Shown: positions 2,344-32,134 of the stretch, one piece after another
Numbering within the stretch: the first letter of the stretch is position 1
How the letters are laid out: every line of letters starts with the position of its first letter
From: a virus
DNA: 32,755 bases
Virus record (IMG/VR): IMGVR_UViG_3300046163_000105
Span: 1 to 32,755 of that record
Reading direction: 5' to 3' (one strand)
Notes under the pieces: model-generated
What the model was told of the DNA's origin: nothing
Databases searched by the model: none
Seen by the model: the letters and a program-made list of their open reading frames with translations, nothing else
Program-made: the position numbers and the translations under genes

Positions 2344-2364
2344 ATGTATCACGTAATGATACAT
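2344..2364. promoter_or_regulatory. Palindromic operator of the higBA module
   Basis: A perfect 8-bp inverted repeat, ATGTATCA-cgtaa-TGATACAT, lies between the divergent tape measure start and higB. HigA antitoxins repress their own promoters through palindromes of this kind, so autoregulation is the natural reading. Because the palindrome covers an upstream in-frame ATG (2344), I place the higB start further downstream. Confidence 0.6.
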
Positions 2365-2370
2365 TTGCGT

Positions 2371-2652
2371 ATGATCATAAGTACGCGTGGAAAGCTTGCC
2401 GCAGGAGCGGTCCAGGACCGCTTTGGCAAAGGCTTTCCAGCCGATATTGTGAAACGCACTCGCGCAATGCTTTCGGCACTCGATGCCGCGGTCGTGCTTG
2501 AAGATTTAAGGTTTCCGCCAGGCAATCATCTTGAAGCCTTGAGCGGGGATCGCTTAGGACACCATTCGGTGCGCATCAACGGACAATGGCGCATTTGTTT
2601 TATCTGGACCGATCAAGGACCTGCAGAGGTTGAGATCGTGGACTATCACTAG
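2371..2652 (+). CDS. higB: HigB-type toxin of a RelE/ParE-superfamily toxin-antitoxin pair
   Basis: A 93-residue protein if started at the ATG at 2371; an upstream ATG at 2344 sits inside the operator palindrome. The C-terminal half carries the HigB signature: 'PPGNHLEAL', then 'GHHSVRINGQWRICF', then a final 'EIVDYH'. HigB toxins are ribosome-dependent mRNA interferases; the conserved Arg and terminal His fall in the expected places. The antitoxin gene follows 11 bp downstream, toxin first, as is usual for hig loci. The pair lies on the + strand inside the minus-strand tail operon, between the tape measure and gpT-like genes. The reading frame is intact, unlike the phage genes around it. Confidence 0.9.
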   Translation: MIISTRGKLAAGAVQDRFGKGFPADIVKRTRAMLSALDAAVVLEDLRFPPGNHLEALSGDRLGHHSVRINGQWRICFIWTDQGPAEVEIVDYH

Positions 2653-2663
2653 GAGGGCCTGAC

Positions 2664-2954
2664 ATGAGTCTGATTACCAATCCATCCCACCCAGGCGAAG
2701 TTCTGGCTGAGCTCTACCTGACCCCACTCGATATGAGCGCAATCACGCTTGCCGCAAAACTTGGCGTGCCGCGCACCCGGATTGAGCGCCTTGTCAAAGG
2801 CCAGACCACCATCACGGTTGACACCGCGATGCGCTTGGCGCGCTTTTTTTCGACGACGCCGGAGTATTGGATGAACCTCCAGCGCGCTTGGGATCTGGCG
2901 CGTGCGCGCGAGACCATCGATGTCTCAGGCATCAAACCCCTCAAGGCCGCTTGA
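2664..2954 (+). CDS. higA: HigA-type antitoxin (XRE-family HTH)
   Basis: A 96-residue protein with a strong AGGAGG ribosome site just upstream. It begins 'NPSHPGEVLAE' and contains an XRE helix-turn-helix at about residues 25-60. The ending 'FSTTPEYWMNLQRAWDL' is characteristic of HigA antitoxins. It should neutralise HigB and repress the promoter at 2344-2364. Its 3' end overlaps the 3' end of the converging gpT-like gene by about 30 bp. This suggests the cassette landed at, or slightly inside, the end of that phage gene and gave it a new C-terminus. Confidence 0.92.
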   Translation: MSLITNPSHPGEVLAELYLTPLDMSAITLAAKLGVPRTRIERLVKGQTTITVDTAMRLARFFSTTPEYWMNLQRAWDLARARETIDVSGIKPLKAA

Positions 2955-3663: not shown

Positions 3664-4582
3664 TCAGTGTGACGGTGCACATTCGGCCCACCGCCGGATC
3701 ACTGCAGCCTGCCAGTCAAAAGTGGCCTGCACGCCTTGTGGCCCCGAGATCTCGATCCGTGGGCGTGGAAGGTAAACAGCGTGCGCGGTAACAGTAAGGC
3801 TCTCGCCCGTCGGTAGCATATATGAGAACTCGAGCTCGCACGCCTCGCCATTGATCGCCTGCGTTACCAGGGTCTGATCGGCAAAGCGGACGACAACATT
3901 ACCTGTCAGGGCAGCAATCGACGGATCCGCGCCATCGATCTTGCCATCGGCCCGGATCGTCTCGATCCGATCAAGATTATTGGAATAGGTCAGATCGGCA
4001 GAGACAACGTTGCCGATATTTGCCCCGTTCCGCGTGATCGCTCCGTTGAAATGCCCGAAGCGTTTCAGAGCGATATTGGCGGACGTTCCCGCTGCCGTAG
4101 TCGTGGCGATCGTTTCACCCTGCGCCACAATGCTGGTCGTGGCCGTCAGCAGCCCAGAGCGCGCCATCTGCCAGTTCAGGCTATCGACCATACAGCCGGA
4201 ATACATCGCATAGCGCGGCACCTCTGGCATGCCGGTCTCGACCGAGAAGGATGGAAGCGCCCAATTTCCGGACCGGAACTCGTGCGTGTATGGCGCCTCC
4301 GCGCCGGTGGTCGTGGGTGCCCCAAATACAGCCTTCAGCCAGAAGCCAAAGGCCTCAACATCAATCGGGATCACCACATTGCCATCCGCTGTCACCGCAT
4401 CTTTGATTGGCGCCTGCGGATCGCGGCCATAGCCCAAAAGCTCTGAAGTTTGCAGGGGTTGCTCGGCCCCGAGCGATGTACTGGCGAAGGGCATCTTGGT
4501 GTAGCCGCCTCGCAGGCGGCGTGCCATAAGTCGTCTCAAACGCAAACGCCATCTGCGCCCGCGCCCCTTGGGCTCGTGCCAT
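3664..4582 (-). pseudogene. Phage tail tube protein with one frameshift
   Basis: Translation starts at 4582 (MARAQGARAQMAFAF) and the frame is lost near 4509-4513. Removing one base restores 'TTYGTPPAGGYTKMPF' and joins the start to the long frame ending at 3664. The joined product is about 305 residues and resembles the tail tube (major tail) proteins of siphoviruses, a beta-rich protein that polymerises into the tail tube. Order next to the tail terminator and gpG-like genes fits. The bactofilin gene begins 90 bp upstream on the opposite strand, so this gene is separated from its original upstream neighbour. Confidence 0.8.
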
Positions 4583-4671
4583 AAACTGTCCTTTCTGCGG
4601 ATGTGACCTTCAACGCAATTGTCTTGACGTTTTGTGATTTATTGATTGTCTTAAGCTTGGGGGAATAATCC

Positions 4672-5127
4672 ATGTCTATTTTTGCAAAACAAAATGAAGC
4701 CAACAAACCTAAAACACTGGAAGTGATTGACGATGACCCATTAGGTAAACCGTCAAGACCACCACTACCGGGTGAGACGCCCGCTCCTGCGCGAGATAGG
4801 CGTCAAAAATCTGTTGTGCAATCAGACCTTGTGATCACAGGCAACCTAACCACAGCGGGTATTCTTGAGTTTTGCGGTCAAATCACCGGTGATCTCAGTG
4901 CCGATACTCTCTTTATAACTGAAGACGGGCACATAAACGGCAAAGTCAGCACAAAGCACATCACAGTCAGCGGCACTCTCACCGGTAACTTGGTGGCTGA
5001 GGATGCAACGTTTAAAAGCAAAAGTGCAACCAAAGCAGACATCCAATGCGAACGTGTTTCTGTTGAAGCAGGCGCCATTATTGATGGCCATATGACGTGC
5101 AAGCCGAAACGCTCCACCCAAGATTAA
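4672..5127 (+). CDS. Bactofilin (polymer-forming cytoskeletal protein)
   Basis: A 151-residue protein with a start behind a G-rich ribosome site. The first 45 residues are polar, charged and Pro-rich; residues about 50-143 form the bactofilin beta-helix, seen as short repeated units such as 'SDLVITGNLTTAG', 'CGQITGDLSA', 'DGHINGKVSTKHI' and 'SGTLTGNLVAEDA'. Length and architecture match the family (DUF583). Bactofilins self-assemble into filaments that scaffold cell-wall enzymes and other proteins at the membrane. The gene lies on the + strand between the tail tube and tail terminator genes. It is noticeably more AT-rich than the flanking phage genes and has an intact frame. I know of no described role for a bactofilin in a phage; host modification during lysogeny is one inference. 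Confidence 0.92.
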   Translation: MSIFAKQNEANKPKTLEVIDDDPLGKPSRPPLPGETPAPARDRRQKSVVQSDLVITGNLTTAGILEFCGQITGDLSADTLFITEDGHINGKVSTKHITVSGTLTGNLVAEDATFKSKSATKADIQCERVSVEAGAIIDGHMTCKPKRSTQD

Positions 5128-5173: not shown

Positions 5174-5269
5174 ATGCTTGGGGGCAAGGAGCAGAGATCT
5201 AAACCATTGGGACTTGATTTTAAAAAACCAAAAGGCAGAAAGAGTAGCCTAAACCGTCAATGTTCATGA
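5174..5269 (+). CDS. Possible small basic ORF upstream of a membrane peptide
   Basis: A 31-residue reading frame, very rich in Lys, Arg and Ser ('KKPKGRKSS'). It follows the bactofilin gene by 46 bp and overlaps the next tiny ORF. A one-base shift at its end would fuse this basic stretch to the hydrophobic helix that follows, giving a plausible small membrane protein of about 55 residues with a positive cytoplasmic tail. No strong ribosome site is visible. I do not recognise it, and it may not be translated. Confidence 0.25.
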   Translation: MLGGKEQRSKPLGLDFKKPKGRKSSLNRQCS

Positions 5270-5340
5270 TCCTGGTTATCGTGGCTCTCGCCCTACTGGT
5301 TTTTGTCTTAAATCTCCTGAGCAGCTATATCCCAGTTTAA
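5260..5340 (+). CDS. Possible 26-residue single-helix membrane peptide
   Basis: The frame encodes 'MFMILVIVALALLVFVLNLL' followed by 'SSYIPV', an almost pure transmembrane helix. A second Met codon at 5266 overlaps the stop of the preceding basic ORF as ATGA, an arrangement typical of translational coupling. Small membrane peptides of this sort occur in phages as holin-like or inhibitor proteins, but nothing here identifies a function. It lies between the bactofilin and tail terminator genes, in the same AT-richer insert. Confidence 0.35.
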   Translation: MFMILVIVALALLVFVLNLLSSYIPV

Positions 5341-5422: not shown

Positions 5423-5862
5423 TCACTCCAAACTATTCGCCACAGTACTATTTGCCACAGTATAGTGAAGAATAACGATCACGATGGCGGCTTTTAAACT
5501 GGCGCCGCCCTCAACTGGAAGATCGACCGGCTCAGGCGCTTCAGGCTCGATCCAGTCACAAAGCCCTCCAAGAGTTCGATCCACCGCAATCACGGCCCCG
5601 ATTTGTCCGACTATAGCGTCAAGGAGAGCGTTTCGATCAGTCGTTGATTGCACGATCACCTCGAGTTCGGCCTGATGTTGAAGTGATAGGTCAACGGAGA
5701 CAAGGTCACACTTGGCTCTCCTGGATTTCCATCGCGCAGGATCATGAGCCCCGCCGGCGGAATGCGTTCCGGCAGAACTTCTCCGCGTAAAACAGCCACA
5801 TGCGGGATCGTGCTAAGCAGATCCGTCAAAGCGCTTAGGATGGTTTCGCGGGTGGTGGGCAT
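5423..5862 (-). pseudogene. Tail terminator / minor tail U-like protein, one frameshift
   Basis: Translation starts at 5862 (MPTTRETILSAL). The frame is lost near 5679-5684, where adding one base restores 'YHFQHQAELEVIVQS' and joins to the frame ending at 5423; the product is about 146 residues. The central 'PPAGLMILRDG' and 'GLCDWIEPEAPEPVDLPVEG' segments are typical of a conserved protein located between the head-tail joining and tail tube genes of Rhodobacteraceae prophages. It is often mislabelled acyl-CoA transferase. By position it caps the tail tube before head joining. The end of the gene contains a 15-bp tandem duplication. It is flanked on both sides by opposite-strand cargo genes. 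Confidence 0.7.
5433..5462. repeat. 15-bp tandem repeat at the 3' end of the tail terminator gene
   Basis: Two adjacent copies of CTATTYGCCACAGTA (5433-5447 and 5448-5462) differ at one base. They encode the repeated 'TVANSTVANS' at the C-terminus and sit at the edge of the bactofilin insert. It may be a slippage duplication or a trace of the insertion event. Confidence 0.6.
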
Positions 5863-5939: not shown

Positions 5940-6185
5940 ATGAATACATCTGGAGTAACCGTTCGCGAAATTGTGGCGCAAAAATTTGATCTCAACGTGA
6001 ATGAACTCTCGCATGAGACGTCTTTCATTCAAGATCTCGGCGCGAACAGCCTTGATAAAATTGAGCTGGTCATGCGTTTAGAAGAGGCGTTTGAGCTTGA
6101 AATTAAAGATGCAGAGTCTGAGGAAATCATAACTGTTGGTGACGCAGAGGCATTTGTTCAAAGAGCCTTGAGCGCTAAACGCTAA
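5940..6185 (+). CDS. acpP-like: Acyl carrier protein
   Basis: An 81-residue acidic protein with an ideal AGGAGG ribosome site seven bases before the ATG at 5940; in-frame ATGs further upstream lack such a site. The motif 'DLGANSLDKIELVMRLEE' holds Ser37, the expected site for 4'-phosphopantetheine. The helices before and after ('VREIVAQKF', 'FELEIKDAE') match AcpP-type carriers of fatty-acid synthesis. Cellular ACPs carry acyl chains as thioesters for lipid synthesis and also bind enzymes such as acyltransferases. The gene is on the + strand between the tail terminator and DUF6441 genes, and its 3' end overlaps the DUF6441 stop by 11 bp. Its frame is intact and its base composition is nearer to the bactofilin gene than to its phage neighbours. 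Confidence 0.93.
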   Translation: MNTSGVTVREIVAQKFDLNVNELSHETSFIQDLGANSLDKIELVMRLEEAFELEIKDAESEEIITVGDAEAFVQRALSAKR

Positions 6186-6807
6186 ACCTTTCGAGCCAGT
6201 TCGCCACGATCAGCCCAGGTACCGCTGCCTGCACCCGATCAGCATCCCGCGCCAGATTGAGCCGCTTCGCTAGTTTCACCTGCGGCACCAAAAGAAAGAT
6301 CGGAACTGTACTTCGTCCACGACCCGATTTTGAGCGAGACGCCACGCCCAGTCCGCGATTGTTGAGCCGGCCATCTGCCACCAGCAAGCTTGGACCGCTC
6401 CGCCGATAGACAAACCGCAACCGCAGACCCCGCCGCCGCTCCCATTCGCCTGGGGTCAGCGCCTTGCCGCGCGCGCCCTTACCGGCTGCCGGCGTTGGGA
6501 TAGCAAGCCAGAACCCGTCCTTTGAGCGGATCAATGGTCCGGTGTCGTGGGCCCCGATGATTTGGGGTGCATTCGACCAGACCAGAGCTGCGGCCTTCAA
6601 ACTTTCCCCGGTTTTCGGATAGGTTTGGCTCCGGATCGAATTCGACAATCGCCGACCGAGGCCAGCTTGAGTGATCTGCCCGCGCCATGCGGTTTTCAGG
6701 TCCGTGCCCGCTGCACGCATCGCAGTGCTGACAGCCTTTTCCCCGGCTTTCACCTCGTCTGCCATCACGGCAATGAGGTCGGGTTTGATATCAAGGCCAA
6801 GTTTCAT
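6175..6807 (-). CDS. DUF6441 phage virion-assembly protein
   Basis: A 210-residue basic protein with 'FWLAIPTPAAGKG', 'GEWERRRGLRLRFVYRR' and 'VPIFLLVPQVKL', the conserved blocks of the DUF6441 family found in lambda-like prophages of alphaproteobacteria. By position, after the head-tail joining gene and before the tail terminator, it probably acts like lambda gpZ, a minor tail protein that helps head-tail connection; that role is inference. Its start overlaps the end of the preceding gene by four bases. The frame is intact. Confidence 0.75.
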   Translation of the reverse strand: MKLGLDIKPDLIAVMADEVKAGEKAVSTAMRAAGTDLKTAWRGQITQAGLGRRLSNSIRSQTYPKTGESLKAAALVWSNAPQIIGAHDTGPLIRSKDGFWLAIPTPAAGKGARGKALTPGEWERRRGLRLRFVYRRSGPSLLVADGRLNNRGLGVASRSKSGRGRSTVPIFLLVPQVKLAKRLNLARDADRVQAAVPGLIVANWLERFSV

Positions 6808-11384: not shown

Positions 11385-14300
11385 TCACCCCATGTAAGTC
11401 GACCGCATTGTCCGCCTCCGCGCAGACGGGCGCGGCGATGATTTCACAGCCACGTCACCCGCTGGCCCGCTAGTTTCGACCGCGAGCTGTCGCTCCAACT
11501 CGGCCCACCGCGCTTCCGACCAGCGGTCCGCACCGGCAATCCAAGCAGCTGCGCGCGCATATACCCGGCAATCCAGCGCCTCATTGCGCTCACGCAGCTT
11601 TTGCCATTCGAGCTTTGCAAATCCGCGCTTGTTCTTAACGGTGACCAGCTGCTCAGCCGTCAGCTGCTTGAGCCATTCACTGTCGGCCCAATTTGGCAGA
11701 TGCACTGTTCCCGCTGGAAACGAAGATCCCGCGGTGATTTCCTCTGGCGTCGGCCGATCCTGGCGCAGGAAACGATAGGTTTCCGCTTTGAAGGTCGAGG
11801 TTGCCACCGACCAGAGCCGCGCACCGCGCCGCAGCCGCTTGCCGCCAATCGTGGCATCCACAAAGGTTGGTCCCGTCACCGGGCTTGCGCGGTTGAACCC
11901 CTCAAGTCCCTTGACCGGTGCGACCTGTCCAAACCCCATCTGCCGCGCCCAGCCGTAGACCGCGCTGGTCTCATAGCCTGTATCGATCGCCAGTTTTGCA
12001 ATGCTCAGGTGCTGGCCGCTGGCGTGTTGCCAAGTCTGCCCCAAAAGCTCGGAGAGTTTCTGCCAGCATGCCGAAGCTCCGGGACCACCCTCAATAACAA
12101 CATGATCGATGAGCCAACTTTGCAGCCCCCTACCCCAGGCCCAGACATCAACCTCAATCCGGTCCTTTTGAACATCCGCGCCTGCTGTCAGAAACAACCC
12201 ATCGGCCGGCACAGTGCCGGGTGTCCACTCTTCCTTCTGCCCCTGCAGGCGTTGCCAGTCGGGTGCCTCACCACTTTCCATCCAGGTCTCACCCAGCGAT
12301 GTGTTGATGAAGGTCTTCATCATATCATCACCGCCAGCCCGCGCCGACAGGTAGGTTTTGACCATCGCAGCCAATCGAACCCAAGGCGAATAAAGCTCGT
12401 TAAGATGGAACCCGGCTGTGCCCGCAAAGGGCTGCTCAGCAACCCAGTGCCCCTTTGACACTGCCGCCCAGCGGACCTCGTCGCGCCAAGCTGCATCGCA
12501 GTCAACGCAGTGATACCGTGCAGTGTCCGGCTTGTGGCCGCCATCCTCGCCCTTGTCCCATTTGACCTGTGGCCAGATCAGGATTTGATCATACCCACAG
12601 TCGGGACATGGCACCCAGAAACGGCGCTGATCACTTTCCTCAAACGCCGTCTCGATCCGGCTCGCGCCCTTGTTCGTCGGCGTTGAGACCAGCACGATCT
12701 TGCGGTTCCAGAACGTCACGGTGCGCTTTCTTGCAAGGTTGACCGGATCGCCCTCGGCCCCCGCGCTGAACGGGTAGCGATCGACCTCATCACAAAGCAG
12801 CAACCGGATCGGACGACTTGCCAGACCAGAAGGTGCGTTGGCACCGACAATGGTCAGGTGGCCACCCGGAAACCGTTTGTGCAGGATCTTGTTGTTGCCA
12901 TCCCGCGATTTGGGGTCGGCAATCTTGTCCCGCAAACAAGGCGTATCTCGCGCCATCGGCGAGAAGCGGTCCTTCGACCAGGTTTCAGCATCGCGCTCTG
13001 TCGGCATCACCACCATGATCGGTGCCGGGTCCTGGTCGACGTGGTAGCCGACGGCGTTATTGACCATCTCCGTGTTATGCGTTGGGATCATGGTGCGTCC
13101 GGCCAGATACAGCCTGTTGGGGCTATCTACCTGGATGCAGCGCACAGGGACGCTATCGACCGGCTCGACAGCGACAATACGGCGCCGCTTGGTTTCCGTT
13201 GTCCGTCGTCCCGTGCGTGAGACCTGGCGCGCGCGCTTCCTTGCCAGTCGGAACACCGGCGTGTCGTCATAGATCATGAAGGAAAACCGGGTCGCGGGGT
13301 TTCCAAGACGCCGTTCGCCATCGATCACCACCGTCGGATGCTTGTCGACGGCGGTGAACTTAATGCCCAAGGAGGCAAGAAGCTCGCCGAAGCCCTCGGC
13401 CAGACGCAGATGAACCGTGATGAACTCGCAGCGACCGCATTCAGCGATATAGCCGTCCGTGTCCATCAGCCCCTGAAGGAGAGCCAAGCGCTGATCTATC
13501 GACACGCGAAGGTAGGCCGGCGGTATGTGTTTACCGGTTTCTGGCGTCTTTCGATCCTTGGCCAGCCCCATCTCCCGCAAGCGCAGGCTGAACGGCTTTC
13601 CGTCTTCCAGAACTGGATCAACGGGAAGGCCGTGCTTCCACTGCATTGAAAACTGCCGCCCACATTCCGCGCATTGCCCATTCCCATGGCGCCCCAGCAC
13701 ATCCATGTCATGGCCGCGGCGACACATATTGTCGGGCCAAGGCAGTATCGGCTTCAGCGTCAGGATGTGCGGCACCCGTTTGTCCTTCGACTTGACCTCA
13801 ACCTCCATGCCGCAGGCGCGTAGGTGATCGGCGATTTCAAGATCATCCTGATGGCAGGTGATCTGTGAGCCGTAGCTGTGGCCGTCCCCAAGCCAGACGC
13901 CCAAGGCGTAAGGCGGGATCGGCAATGCCTGTTCGGGCAGTTGAAGCGGCGCAGCCACCGGGATAGCGTATCGGTTCCGTTTCGTCCTCCCGTAGTAGTG
14001 CGCTGTCTCAGCAATCTCCTTCGTCGTCAGGACCGCCCGGTGGATCATCATGAAACAGGTCCCTCAACGCGTCCTGCGCGCGTACTGGTGTGTCGCTGTC
14101 GACCGCCCAGAGGTGATCGGCATCCGCGACGATCGAACTACCGTCCGAAAACCGTACCCGGTAGCAGCGCCGGTTGCGCATCACATCCGTCGCGCCCGTG
14201 ACACGGCAAGGCGCGCCAGTTTCGTCAAAAAGAATGTCGCCGACCTGCACGTCGGCCATCGTGGTCCACCCCGTGGGCGTCGCCAGCGGCGTATCGAGTG

Positions 14301-14544
14301 CCAACGCCTTACCCACCTGTGAACTGGACATGATCACGACAGTTTCTGTCGCCGCGTCCGAGACTGCCTCCATGATCCCGCGCTGGTATTCGGCGCGGCT
14401 TGTCCGCCATTGGCCAGGCTCGGCACTGGCCTCAGAACTCAGCCGCCGGTTCTGGTCCGCCCAATCGCTGATCGTTAGGTCCGGCGGTGGTTTCAGAACC
14501 GCTAGTGCCCTTGCCACCGTCCGTTTCAGGATCGCTGAGCCCAT
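11385..14544 (-). pseudogene. Terminase large subunit (lambda gpA family) carrying an intein, frameshifted
   Basis: The likely start is the ATG at 14544 (MGSAILKRTVARALA), inside the end of the small-subunit gene. The Walker A motif 'SSSQVGK' at 14325-14308 is interrupted directly after its Lys by an intein (14307-13074); the motif resumes 'TEMVNNAVGY'. After splicing, TerL would be about 640 residues, with Walker B 'LLLCDEVDRYP', two CxxC pairs of a zinc ribbon ('CPDCGY', 'CVDCDA') and a nuclease domain beginning near 'TAGADVQKDRIEVDVW'. It packages DNA and cuts it at cos or pac sites. An extra base near 14046-14050, within the intein, puts the N- and C-terminal halves in different frames, so no full-length precursor is made without correction or slippage. 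Confidence 0.9.
13074..14307 (-). other. Class 3-like intein with LAGLIDADG endonuclease in TerL Walker A
   Basis: The intein begins with Ala ('ALALDTPLATPTGWTTM') instead of Cys or Ser and ends 'MIPTHN', followed by Thr. The block B segment ends 'ADHLW', supplying the Trp; block F reads 'VRCIQVDS', supplying the Cys; block G reads 'PTHN', supplying the Thr two before the terminal Asn. This Trp-Cys-Thr set with a non-nucleophilic first residue is the published signature of class 3 inteins, in which the block F Cys starts splicing. Two LAGLIDADG motifs are visible, 'YALGVWLGDGHSYGS' and 'LALLQGLMDTDGYI', with a Cys/His segment between them. Removing one T near 14048 gives a 411-residue intein; as sequenced it is split. 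Confidence 0.9.
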
Positions 14545-15028
14545 CAATGTCAGGGTCGGTTTTAAATTCAATGTCTGGCTCTGCGAGATCATCAAGCACC
14601 TCGCGAATGGCGGCACGAATAAGGTTACGGGTATCTCCGACTGTGGATTGCTCAAATACCTGTGGAGCCAGCCGGTCAGGCAGCGCCAACAGACGGGTTC
14701 TCAAAAGCGCCAGTACGGCGATCCAAGCCGCTTCAACCTGGTCGGCTGCAATCAGAGATCGGCGCTTTTCTTTCGCTTCCATTTCCGCAAGGTCGGCGCG
14801 GGCCCGGATAAAGCGCGCCCGTTCGGCGGCATAGTCGGGCGCACCCGCCTGCGCCTTCAGCGCCTGATCTCGCAGGTAGCGCACATATCCACGCACCGAC
14901 CCGATCAGATCATACTGACCGCGCTCCGCCTTCGGGATCACCCCCTCCCGGCTCAGCTGCTGAACCCTGCGCTCCGACAGATCAAGCAGCTTTGCGATCA
15001 CACCGATGGATTGGGTGGCTGCTGACAT
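14432..15028 (-). CDS. Terminase small subunit
   Basis: A 198-residue protein starting 'MSAATQSIGVIAKLLDLSER'. An N-terminal winged-helix region (about 8-50: 'RVQQLSREGVIPK', 'YDLIGSVRGYVRYLRD') fits the Nu1-type DNA-binding domain that recognises the packaging site. A charged coiled-coil-like helix follows ('ARADLAEMEAKEKRRS'). The acidic, low-complexity C-terminus would contact TerL. It is the first gene of the late operon; its end overlaps the TerL start by about 113 bp. An AGGAT ribosome site lies eight bases before the ATG. Confidence 0.88.
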   Translation of the reverse strand: MSAATQSIGVIAKLLDLSERRVQQLSREGVIPKAERGQYDLIGSVRGYVRYLRDQALKAQAGAPDYAAERARFIRARADLAEMEAKEKRRSLIAADQVEAAWIAVLALLRTRLLALPDRLAPQVFEQSTVGDTRNLIRAAIREVLDDLAEPDIEFKTDPDIDGLSDPETDGGKGTSGSETTAGPNDQRLGGPEPAAEF

Positions 15029-30258: not shown

Positions 30259-30710
30259 CCACACACGAACCCATCCTGACGCGCTTGGCCGCCCTGAAAG
30301 CCATGTCTGTCAATGAGCTAAAGGCTGAATGGCAGGCGCTGTTTAACGCCCCTGCCCCAAACAATAGCCACAGGTTTTTAGAAAGCCGTTTGGCTTACCG
30401 GATCCAAGAGCTGACCTATGGTGGCCCGGACAAGCAGACACGCCGCATGCTGGACCTGCTGGCCGACGAAGTCGAAGGCACGCTGACGCGCAAGGCCCAG
30501 ATTGCAGATCCGCGTAACCCGGTGGTCGGGACCAAGCTCATCCGCGAATGGGATGGCGTTGCCCATACGGTGACTGTGCTGAAAGACGGCTTCGATTGGA
30601 GAGGACAGCGCTACAAGTCGCTGTCGGCTGTCGCCCGCGCCATCACCGGAACGCGCTGGAACGGCTACCGCTTCTTTGGACTGCGTGAGCGGAAGCGAGG
30701 TGAGGCATGA
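30255..30710 (+). CDS. DUF2924 protein
   Basis: A 151-residue protein. 'LKAEWQALFNAPAPN', 'LAYRIQELTYGG' and 'GTKLIREWDGVAHTVTVLKD', then 'GFDWRGQRYKSLSAVARAIT' and 'GTRWNGYRFFGL', are the family signature. DUF2924 proteins nearly always sit directly upstream of a large serine recombinase, and here the stop overlaps the recombinase start by four bases. A helper role in DNA binding or directionality has been assumed but not shown. Confidence 0.92.
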   Translation: MTTHEPILTRLAALKAMSVNELKAEWQALFNAPAPNNSHRFLESRLAYRIQELTYGGPDKQTRRMLDLLADEVEGTLTRKAQIADPRNPVVGTKLIREWDGVAHTVTVLKDGFDWRGQRYKSLSAVARAITGTRWNGYRFFGLRERKRGEA

Positions 30711-32134
30711 CGGACGTTCCGACAAAACCCACCCGCCGCCTGCGTTGCGCCATCTACACCCGCAAATCGAGTGAGGAAGGCCTCGAGCAGGAGTTCAACT
30801 CGCTCCATGCCCAGCGGGAGGCCTGCGAGGCCTATATCGCGAGCCAACGCTCCGAAGGCTGGGTCTTGGTGCGCGATCAATATGACGATGGCGGCATCTC
30901 CGGCGGAACACTGGAGCGCCCTGCCCTGCAGCAACTGCTTGTTGATATCGAGGACGGCTTGGTCGACGTCGTTGTCGTTTACAAAATCGACCGTCTCAGC
31001 CGTTCGCTTATGGACTTTTCCAAACTGGTCGAGGTGTTCGATCGCAACGGCGTGACCTTTGTCTCCGTAACGCAATCGTTCAACACAACCACATCCATGG
31101 GCCGCTTGACGCTGAATATCCTACTCAGCTTCGCACAGTTCGAGCGAGATGTCACCGCAGAGCGTATTCGCGACAAGGTGAAGGCCTCCCGCATGAAGGG
31201 TATGTGGATGGGCGGCTATGTGCCCCTCGGTTATGATGTCGTCGACCGTAAGTTGGTGGTGAACGAAGAAGAAGCCGCCAAGGTCCGCATGGTGTTTGAA
31301 CGTTTTGTGGCAATAGGATCCGCGACTGTTCTGGCCCGCGAGTTGCGCAGCGAGGGGTTCCGCAACAAGCAAGGCACGCTGATCGATAAGGGCTACCTCT
31401 ATCGCCTGCTTAACAATCGCGTCTATCGCGGCGAGGCTGTCCATAAAGGCAAATCCTATCCCGGTGAGCATGAAGCCATCATCGACCCTCGACTTTGGGA
31501 ACAGGTGCATGACATCATGAGTGAAAGCCCCCGCAAGCGGGCGAACAACAGCCGAACGCAAACGCCTGCACTTCTGAAGGGGTTACTGTTCACTGCCACC
31601 GGCGCAGCCATGACGCCATCCAGCACCAAGAAGGGCACGCGCCGGTATCGCTACTACGTGTCCATGGACCTTCTGAAAAACCGCGAAACGCCTAACGATG
31701 GTAACCCGAGGCGTTTGCCGGCCGAAACAGCCGAGGCCGCCGTCATTACCGAGATCCGCCGCGTTCTGCAAACCCCCGAAACCACAGCACAGGTCATAGC
31801 CGTGCTGGATCGTATGGATATCCCTGAGGCGGAGGCCATTGCCGCCCTGCAGCACTTCCCCAAGCTTTGGGATCAGCTTTTTCCAGGCGAGCAGGCCCGC
31901 ATCATTCAGCTTCTTGTCAGACGCGTCGCAGTGACTGCTGAAGGACTCGTCATCGACATTCGTACAGACGGCATCGCAGGCGTCATGCGGGAGATGATGA
32001 CCCCACGCCAGCTTGAGGCTGCGAATAATGGCCGCGCCCGACACCATCCAGGTTTTCGTCCCCCTCAAGGTGCGGAAGAAAAACGGGCGGCCCAAAATCT
32101 TGCCACCCGCCGATTACCTGCCCAGCGAGGATAA
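30707..32134 (+). CDS. Large serine recombinase (prophage integrase)
   Basis: A 475-residue protein. The catalytic domain (about 10-160) begins 'RCAIYTRKSSEEGLEQEF', with Ser21 the likely nucleophile, and contains 'YDDGGISGGTLERPALQQLL' and 'KIDRLSRSLMDF'. A recombinase domain (about 170-280) shows 'VPLGYDVVDRKLVVN'. A zinc-ribbon/coiled-coil region follows; the expected zinc-ribbon Cys residues are not seen. It would integrate and excise the prophage between att sites. The last 35 residues are basic and low-complexity and overlap the next gene in another frame. They may be original or result from a lost stop. Confidence 0.95.
   Translation: MTDVPTKPTRRLRCAIYTRKSSEEGLEQEFNSLHAQREACEAYIASQRSEGWVLVRDQYDDGGISGGTLERPALQQLLVDIEDGLVDVVVVYKIDRLSRSLMDFSKLVEVFDRNGVTFVSVTQSFNTTTSMGRLTLNILLSFAQFERDVTAERIRDKVKASRMKGMWMGGYVPLGYDVVDRKLVVNEEEAAKVRMVFERFVAIGSATVLARELRSEGFRNKQGTLIDKGYLYRLLNNRVYRGEAVHKGKSYPGEHEAIIDPRLWEQVHDIMSESPRKRANNSRTQTPALLKGLLFTATGAAMTPSSTKKGTRRYRYYVSMDLLKNRETPNDGNPRRLPAETAEAAVITEIRRVLQTPETTAQVIAVLDRMDIPEAEAIAALQHFPKLWDQLFPGEQARIIQLLVRRVAVTAEGLVIDIRTDGIAGVMREMMTPRQLEAANNGRARHHPGFRPPQGAEEKRAAQNLATRRLPAQRG

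Follow-up and report, generated by a model that had tools for sequence, protein, structure and literature searches.

A bactofilin gene kept at one antisense position among the tail genes of temperate phages of marine Rhodobacterales

Introduction

Bactofilins are membrane-bound proteins of the bacterial cytoskeleton. Among the systems described so far, one of those closest to the locus analysed here is BacA, the bactofilin of Caulobacter and the Rhodobacterales, whose binding to the membrane depends on the N-terminal peptide MFSKQAKS and whose polymers are abolished by the substitution F130R (PMC12448750). The phage bactofilins of the present study, found in an IMG/VR virus record of 32,755 bases (the whole stretch analysed, termed the window) and in its relatives, share with BacA a beta-helix core, a hydrophobic residue at the polymer interface and, in several phage lineages, an MFSK-like N-terminus. 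They differ from it in sequence, with approximately 22-23% identity to the host proteins aligned, in a shorter tail, in the residue at the position of F130 and in the absence of an adjoining M23 peptidase gene. Moreover, the lineage of the window falls outside the host group in the tree and is encoded in a tail operon.

A second point of comparison is provided by the morons of temperate phages. As with these, the gene is inserted between genes that adjoin each other in relatives, lies antisense, appears to have its own -35 element, varies in presence and often differs in base composition. Unlike known morons, the cargo here is a cytoskeletal scaffold, no intrinsic terminator was found in the window by a scan covering the simple type (a stem followed by a run of T), and the position appears to have been filled with bactofilins at least twice. 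With regard to the phage itself, Rhodobacter capsulatus RcOceanus and the RcC cluster possess a homologous tail tube (58%) and a matching head-tail gene order; in RcOceanus, an isolated relative, the position is empty, with gene 12 ending 14 nt before gene 13. Prophages of the Rhodobacteraceae have been surveyed, with acpP described as prophage cargo, as also observed at a neighbouring position in the window; the main text of that survey contains no mention of a bactofilin (PMC8224337). Virus-encoded bactofilins are reported from the Imitevirales giant viruses, which are viruses of eukaryotes with an unrelated genome context (PMC12192438). This is the sole virus report found in the open, published literature searched, which yielded no phage-encoded bactofilin; an earlier note on this DNA, made from the sequence alone, likewise knew of none with a described phage role.

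Results

The bactofilin gene and its surroundings

The genes around the bactofilin lie on the minus strand and encode a GpA-type terminase, a portal, a ClpP-like protease, a Phage_cap_E capsid protein, a DUF6441 protein, a tail terminator, a Phage_tube_2 tail tube and a tape measure. The bactofilin gene (4672-5127, plus strand) is antisense at the junction of the tail terminator and tail tube genes, hereafter slot B, a placement given in the earlier note and borne out by the ORFs of the window and their Pfam matches. On one side is the tail tube gene (3664-4582, minus strand; PF18906, E 2.5e-52), the frame of which is broken here and intact in a 313-aa homologue in the sister contig L002. The other flank is the tail terminator gene (5423-5862, minus strand), broken into ORFs at 5423-5659 and 5656-5862, with an intact homologue of 141 aa in the same contig. 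Compared with its sister contigs, where these frames are open, the record has single-nucleotide indels that disrupt the genes for the tail tube, tail terminator, portal, tape measure and protease as well as a small ORF downstream of the bactofilin, a feature missed by the earlier note that may reflect either sequencing error or prophage decay. Despite these indels in the late genes, the frames of the bactofilin and of an acyl carrier protein (ACP) are intact. Elsewhere in the record, the terminase ORF (11385-14655, minus strand) is split beside its Walker A motif by what resembles an intein containing a LAGLIDADG domain, with junctions ...SSSQVGK / HNTEMVNN... and two overlapping frames, and towards the end of the record lies a serine-recombinase-like gene (30707-32134, plus strand), likely an integrase.

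The bactofilin gene encodes 151 aa from an ATG start with no internal stop, arranged as an N-terminal arm beginning MSIFAKQ, a beta-helix core at approximately residues 47-141 and a tail of 12 residues. The Pfam profile PF04519 (Bactofilin) matches with E 1.6e-18, residues 47-141 corresponding to profile positions 1-97 of 98, and the score of 67.2 bits compares with a curated cut-off of 27.9. In the AlphaFold2 model the core has a pLDDT of approximately 90 and matches Caulobacter BacA (2N3D, TMt 0.91) and the Thermus bactofilin (6RIB, TMt 0.89) with an rmsd of 1.5-1.6. A profile search of the PDB using phage and host copies also recovered BacA (2N3D, E 7.6e-28) and the Thermus protein (6RIA, E 4.4e-16). 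The identification made in the earlier note therefore agrees well with both profile and predicted fold. Among viral resources, a BFVD fold search gave no match below E 0.001, two slot bactofilins had no match in an annotated phage collection, and three slot copies representing the main lineages had no convincing match in PHROGs. The GC content of the gene is 0.48 compared with approximately 0.6 in neighbouring phage genes, so that the AT-richer composition previously read as a sign of a moron is real, but as a sign it is weakened, the phage copies ranging from 46% to 66% GC according to lineage.

Occupation of slot B in related phages

Four other contigs (L002-L005) have the same arrangement of bactofilin and ACP, with bactofilin protein identity of 94-97%. 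The wider sample was drawn from the tail tube, and consisted of the best 80 of its IMG/VR relatives, which number at least 598, together with 80 loci from GTDB genomes, mostly Rhodobacterales. Both flanks were present in 151 loci, which formed 119 clusters at 95% DNA identity; slot B was counted as empty where the gap was no more than 130 nt. On this basis it is empty in 82 clusters, occupied by a bactofilin in 15 and by other cargo in 22, which indicates that the bactofilin is not needed for the virion and rules out its use as a marker of the whole phage family, being missing in most relatives. The sample contained 24 bactofilin loci. All 23 with both flanks are in slot B and antisense, the remaining one being L005, which starts inside the bactofilin gene and lacks the tube side.

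Searches that started from the bactofilin, using queries of other lineages, returned about 34 viral loci, a few of them on contigs already in the former sample. Every one adjoins the terminator and/or tube genes of this family, including a divergent soil-type clade (L226-L244), and these scans of viral contigs found this family and this junction only. At least seven divergent lineages of slot B bactofilins are now known, and the isolated strain Thalassobacter stenotrophicus CECT 5294 has the same junction. The bactofilin is thus kept repeatedly at one fixed spot among the tail genes, facing the opposite way, in temperate phages of marine Rhodobacterales; the earlier note had proposed a search of prophage sets for bactofilins flanked by tail genes, and such loci exist in viral contigs and GTDB genomes alike. 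An assembly chimera or host contamination is ruled out: the junction recurs in dozens of contigs obtained independently and in the isolate, and a search of viral contigs with a host-type BacA gave no relative.

Other cargo in slot B comprises a 68-aa hydrophobic protein, an SNase, a SASA esterase in sense orientation and an IS110 element. The hydrophobic protein (MFETVFTIIIGLAALFFVLWIYILLPAGMATKRGRSAFGW...) occurs in L028 (5688-5891), L034, L051, L053, L102, L103 and L118; it matches PHROG 9201, of unknown function, and no Pfam family.

Selection and origin

Pairwise Nei-Gojobori estimates of dN/dS within the window lineage are 0.11-0.36, apart from one pair at 0.50 with few changes. Values of 0.11-0.17 were obtained in lineage D where dS was measurable, and in the remaining comparisons synonymous sites were saturated. 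Phage bactofilins are therefore under purifying selection in separate lineages, and the intact frame reported in the earlier note is that of a selected gene.

The host genomes retain their own chromosomal BacA, with an M23 peptidase gene, recognised by its sequence ends and not by a profile search, adjoining in all three host loci read; there is none beside the slot bactofilin of the window. A comparison with host bactofilins by phylogeny, also suggested previously, places the Rhodobacterales BacAs apart from the window lineage, with no nesting of phage copies inside the host group, and this tree together with the low identity rules out a recent capture of the BacA of the resident host. With respect to the slot copies themselves, a single origin of all of them including L217, the second prophage of a Yoonia MAG, is rejected (AU p 0.0004, for a group named after the tree was seen), while a single origin without L217 is not (AU p 0.15). 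The rejection supports the view that bactofilins entered slot B, in one and the same orientation, on two or more occasions, with L217 as a separate capture, within a tree whose deep branches are weak, several of whose rows are long-branched and in which the placement of the soil clade is uncertain.

Expression signals

A putative -35 element, CTTGAC, is located at 4623-4628 (plus strand), 49 nt upstream of the bactofilin ATG, with no convincing -10 element in the window. CTTGAC is the usual -35 sequence of Alphaproteobacteria. In all but one of 14 divergent slot copies the exact hexamer precedes the start by 49-63 nt. It is absent in L217 and, in a further reading of upstream regions that left aside L222, L248, L252 and L253, in the soil clade. 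The chance occurrence of the hexamer is approximately 0.02 per copy; a binomial value overstates the case since the copies are related, although synonymous sites between lineages are saturated. Judging from the conserved hexamer and the antisense orientation, transcription of the bactofilin is probably independent of that of the tail operon. The view of the gene as a retained moron, put forward in the earlier note, consequently stands as regards an intact, selected cargo gene at a junction that is mostly empty and a conserved -35 hexamer, and is less secure as regards expression, for which neither a clear -10 element nor a terminator was seen in the window.

Membrane anchor, polymer interface and a small membrane protein

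The position equivalent to F130 of BacA is I137 in the window protein and I, V or M in all slot copies aligned, compared with F in the host BacAs. The N-termini are more varied. Lineage C begins MFSKSK or MFNKSK, the MSIFAKQ of the window lineage is only similar to the MFSKKKK-like peptide that targets bactofilins to the membrane, some copies of lineage D have no MFSK-type start, and several phage copies begin MADYK, MADLK or MTSSA. C-terminal tails are 8-20 residues long in phage copies versus 23-27 in host BacA.

Downstream of the bactofilin, window-type and C-type loci contain an ORF of 36-50 codons with an MGLxFKK start followed by a hydrophobic stretch that, by eye, resembles a transmembrane segment. 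In the window it is located at 5207-5340 (plus strand), begins MGLDFKK and has one predicted transmembrane segment; its frame is interrupted here and open in sister contigs. Copies from two bactofilin lineages share the MGLxFKK N-terminus without variation, and such a protein could plausibly be a membrane partner of the bactofilin polymer. Acquisition from the host is disfavoured, no clear chromosomal homologue being present in 12 host genomes.

Cargo at neighbouring positions and on other mobile elements

The second antisense cargo gene of the window, missed by the earlier note, encodes the ACP of 81 aa (5940-6185, plus strand; PF00550, E 2.7e-9; PHROG 5934, E 5.4e-17, moron category). It has a ribosome-binding site, AGGAGG, retains the serine in GANSLD and occupies slot A, between the tail terminator gene and the DUF6441 minor tail gene (6175-6807, minus strand; PF20039, E 8.6e-49). 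Slot A cargo is more varied than that of slot B and includes tRNA-Met/Leu/Ser clusters, ACP, GNAT and EamA proteins, cation efflux and chromate transporters, a kinase and a RES-domain protein. ACPs approximately 62% identical to that of the window are present in L063/L090 and L089, with another ACP in L024; antisense clusters of tRNA-Ser(TGA), tRNA-Leu(TAA) and tRNA-Met(CAT) are present in L010, L016, L030, L043, L063 and L089. PADLOC assigned no defence function to slot cargo beyond two matches, one to the slot A kinase of L118 and one to a cold-shock domain. Between the tape measure and chaperone genes the window has an antisense HigB/HigA-like toxin-antitoxin pair (2344-2954, plus strand), in whose place L002-L004 hold an AbrB-like/PIN (VapBC-like) pair, which makes this junction a third cargo slot.

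Related bactofilins also occur outside this phage family. In L209 and L210, from the Marivita S4E-24 MAG, bactofilins resembling the phage group lie beside a DUF6538 tyrosine integrase and a DUF5906/VapE-like gene, and may thus travel on another mobile element too. An orphan single-domain bactofilin, approximately 32% identical to the window protein, is located near an ISNCY transposase on plasmid pB of Cereibacter sphaeroides 2.4.1 (L258), and other Rhodobacterales plasmids carry similar proteins at approximately 30% identity; plasmid copies were outside the tree.

Discussion

The reading we consider reasonably probable is that the bactofilin is a moron-like gene of lysogenic conversion in a fixed slot, whose product would form a membrane-attached polymer acting on the host envelope. 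Its distribution and antisense orientation argue against a role in the virion, and the genes in slot A are of a kind usual in conversion (tRNAs, ACP, transporters, a kinase, a RES-domain protein). Counting against the conversion reading are the several copies with no MFSK-type anchor, the soil clade lacking CTTGAC, and the window having neither a clear -10 element nor an intrinsic terminator. In the process envisaged, the gene would be transcribed from its own promoter in the lysogen at a time when the tail genes are not expressed. The short-tailed core would subsequently assemble, like BacA, into a nucleotide-independent filament, held on the inner membrane by the N-terminal peptide or, in some lineages, by the tiny membrane partner. 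This polymer might then bind envelope enzymes of the host and reposition or sequester them, changing the wall or surface of the lysogen; an effect of this kind is drawn by analogy with cellular bactofilins only. BacA heads the list of proteins by abundance in the inner-membrane fraction of Ruegeria pomeroyi (PMC9938194), and the target compartment would thus be rich in such a polymer. The I, V or M of phage copies in place of the F of host BacA suggests that the phage protein would build its own polymer and not join host filaments. The fuller proposal, in which a second, phage-owned polymer apart from BacA is fixed to the membrane by its N-terminus or the MGLxFKK protein and re-sites host envelope synthesis, is put forward tentatively.

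A rather unlikely alternative is that the phage protein inhibits host BacA by capping its filaments or co-assembling with them, poisoning them and so changing how the wall grows or a surface feature that depends on BacA. The presence of BacA in the hosts, its abundance in the Ruegeria membrane (PMC9938194) and the shorter tails of the phage copies would all suit an inhibitor, but the different interface residue and the low identity argue against mixed filaments, and a poison would be costly for the lysogen. Superinfection exclusion, also raised in the earlier note, appears improbable. A membrane polymer could block the entry of DNA from related phages, since membrane association and expression in the lysogen are both predicted, and in some relatives slot B holds the 68-aa hydrophobic protein instead; however, this protein lacks a Pfam match, and strict exclusion within the family is made less likely by bactofilin prophages that reside with sister prophages of the same family, with two tail loci in T. 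stenotrophicus CECT 5294, five in a Marivita MAG in which strains may be mixed, and at least three in IMG genome 2910546652. Although its place among tail genes might suggest a lytic-phase role with late expression, for example as a platform for assembly or lysis, this is very improbable for a gene that is antisense to the late operon and missing in most close relatives with approximately 90% identical tail tubes. A neutral passenger retained by chance would fit a slot that is usually empty but is scarcely credible given the purifying selection seen in separate lineages (dN/dS well below 1), the conserved -35 hexamer and recurrence at a single slot across seven lineages or more, a separate capture among them.

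Conclusions

Phages carry tubulin- and actin-like proteins of their own, and the present results suggest that the phages of this family provide their hosts with a phage-encoded scaffold. The prophage family is widespread, and it keeps, and has apparently re-acquired, a bactofilin at one slot. As minimal natural bactofilins, consisting of a core with short arms and a possible micro-protein partner, the slot copies lend themselves to testing client recruitment, and the bactofilin-prophage system is testable in named isolates. If the conversion reading is true, lysogenic conversion would act on envelope scaffolding in an abundant group of marine bacteria.
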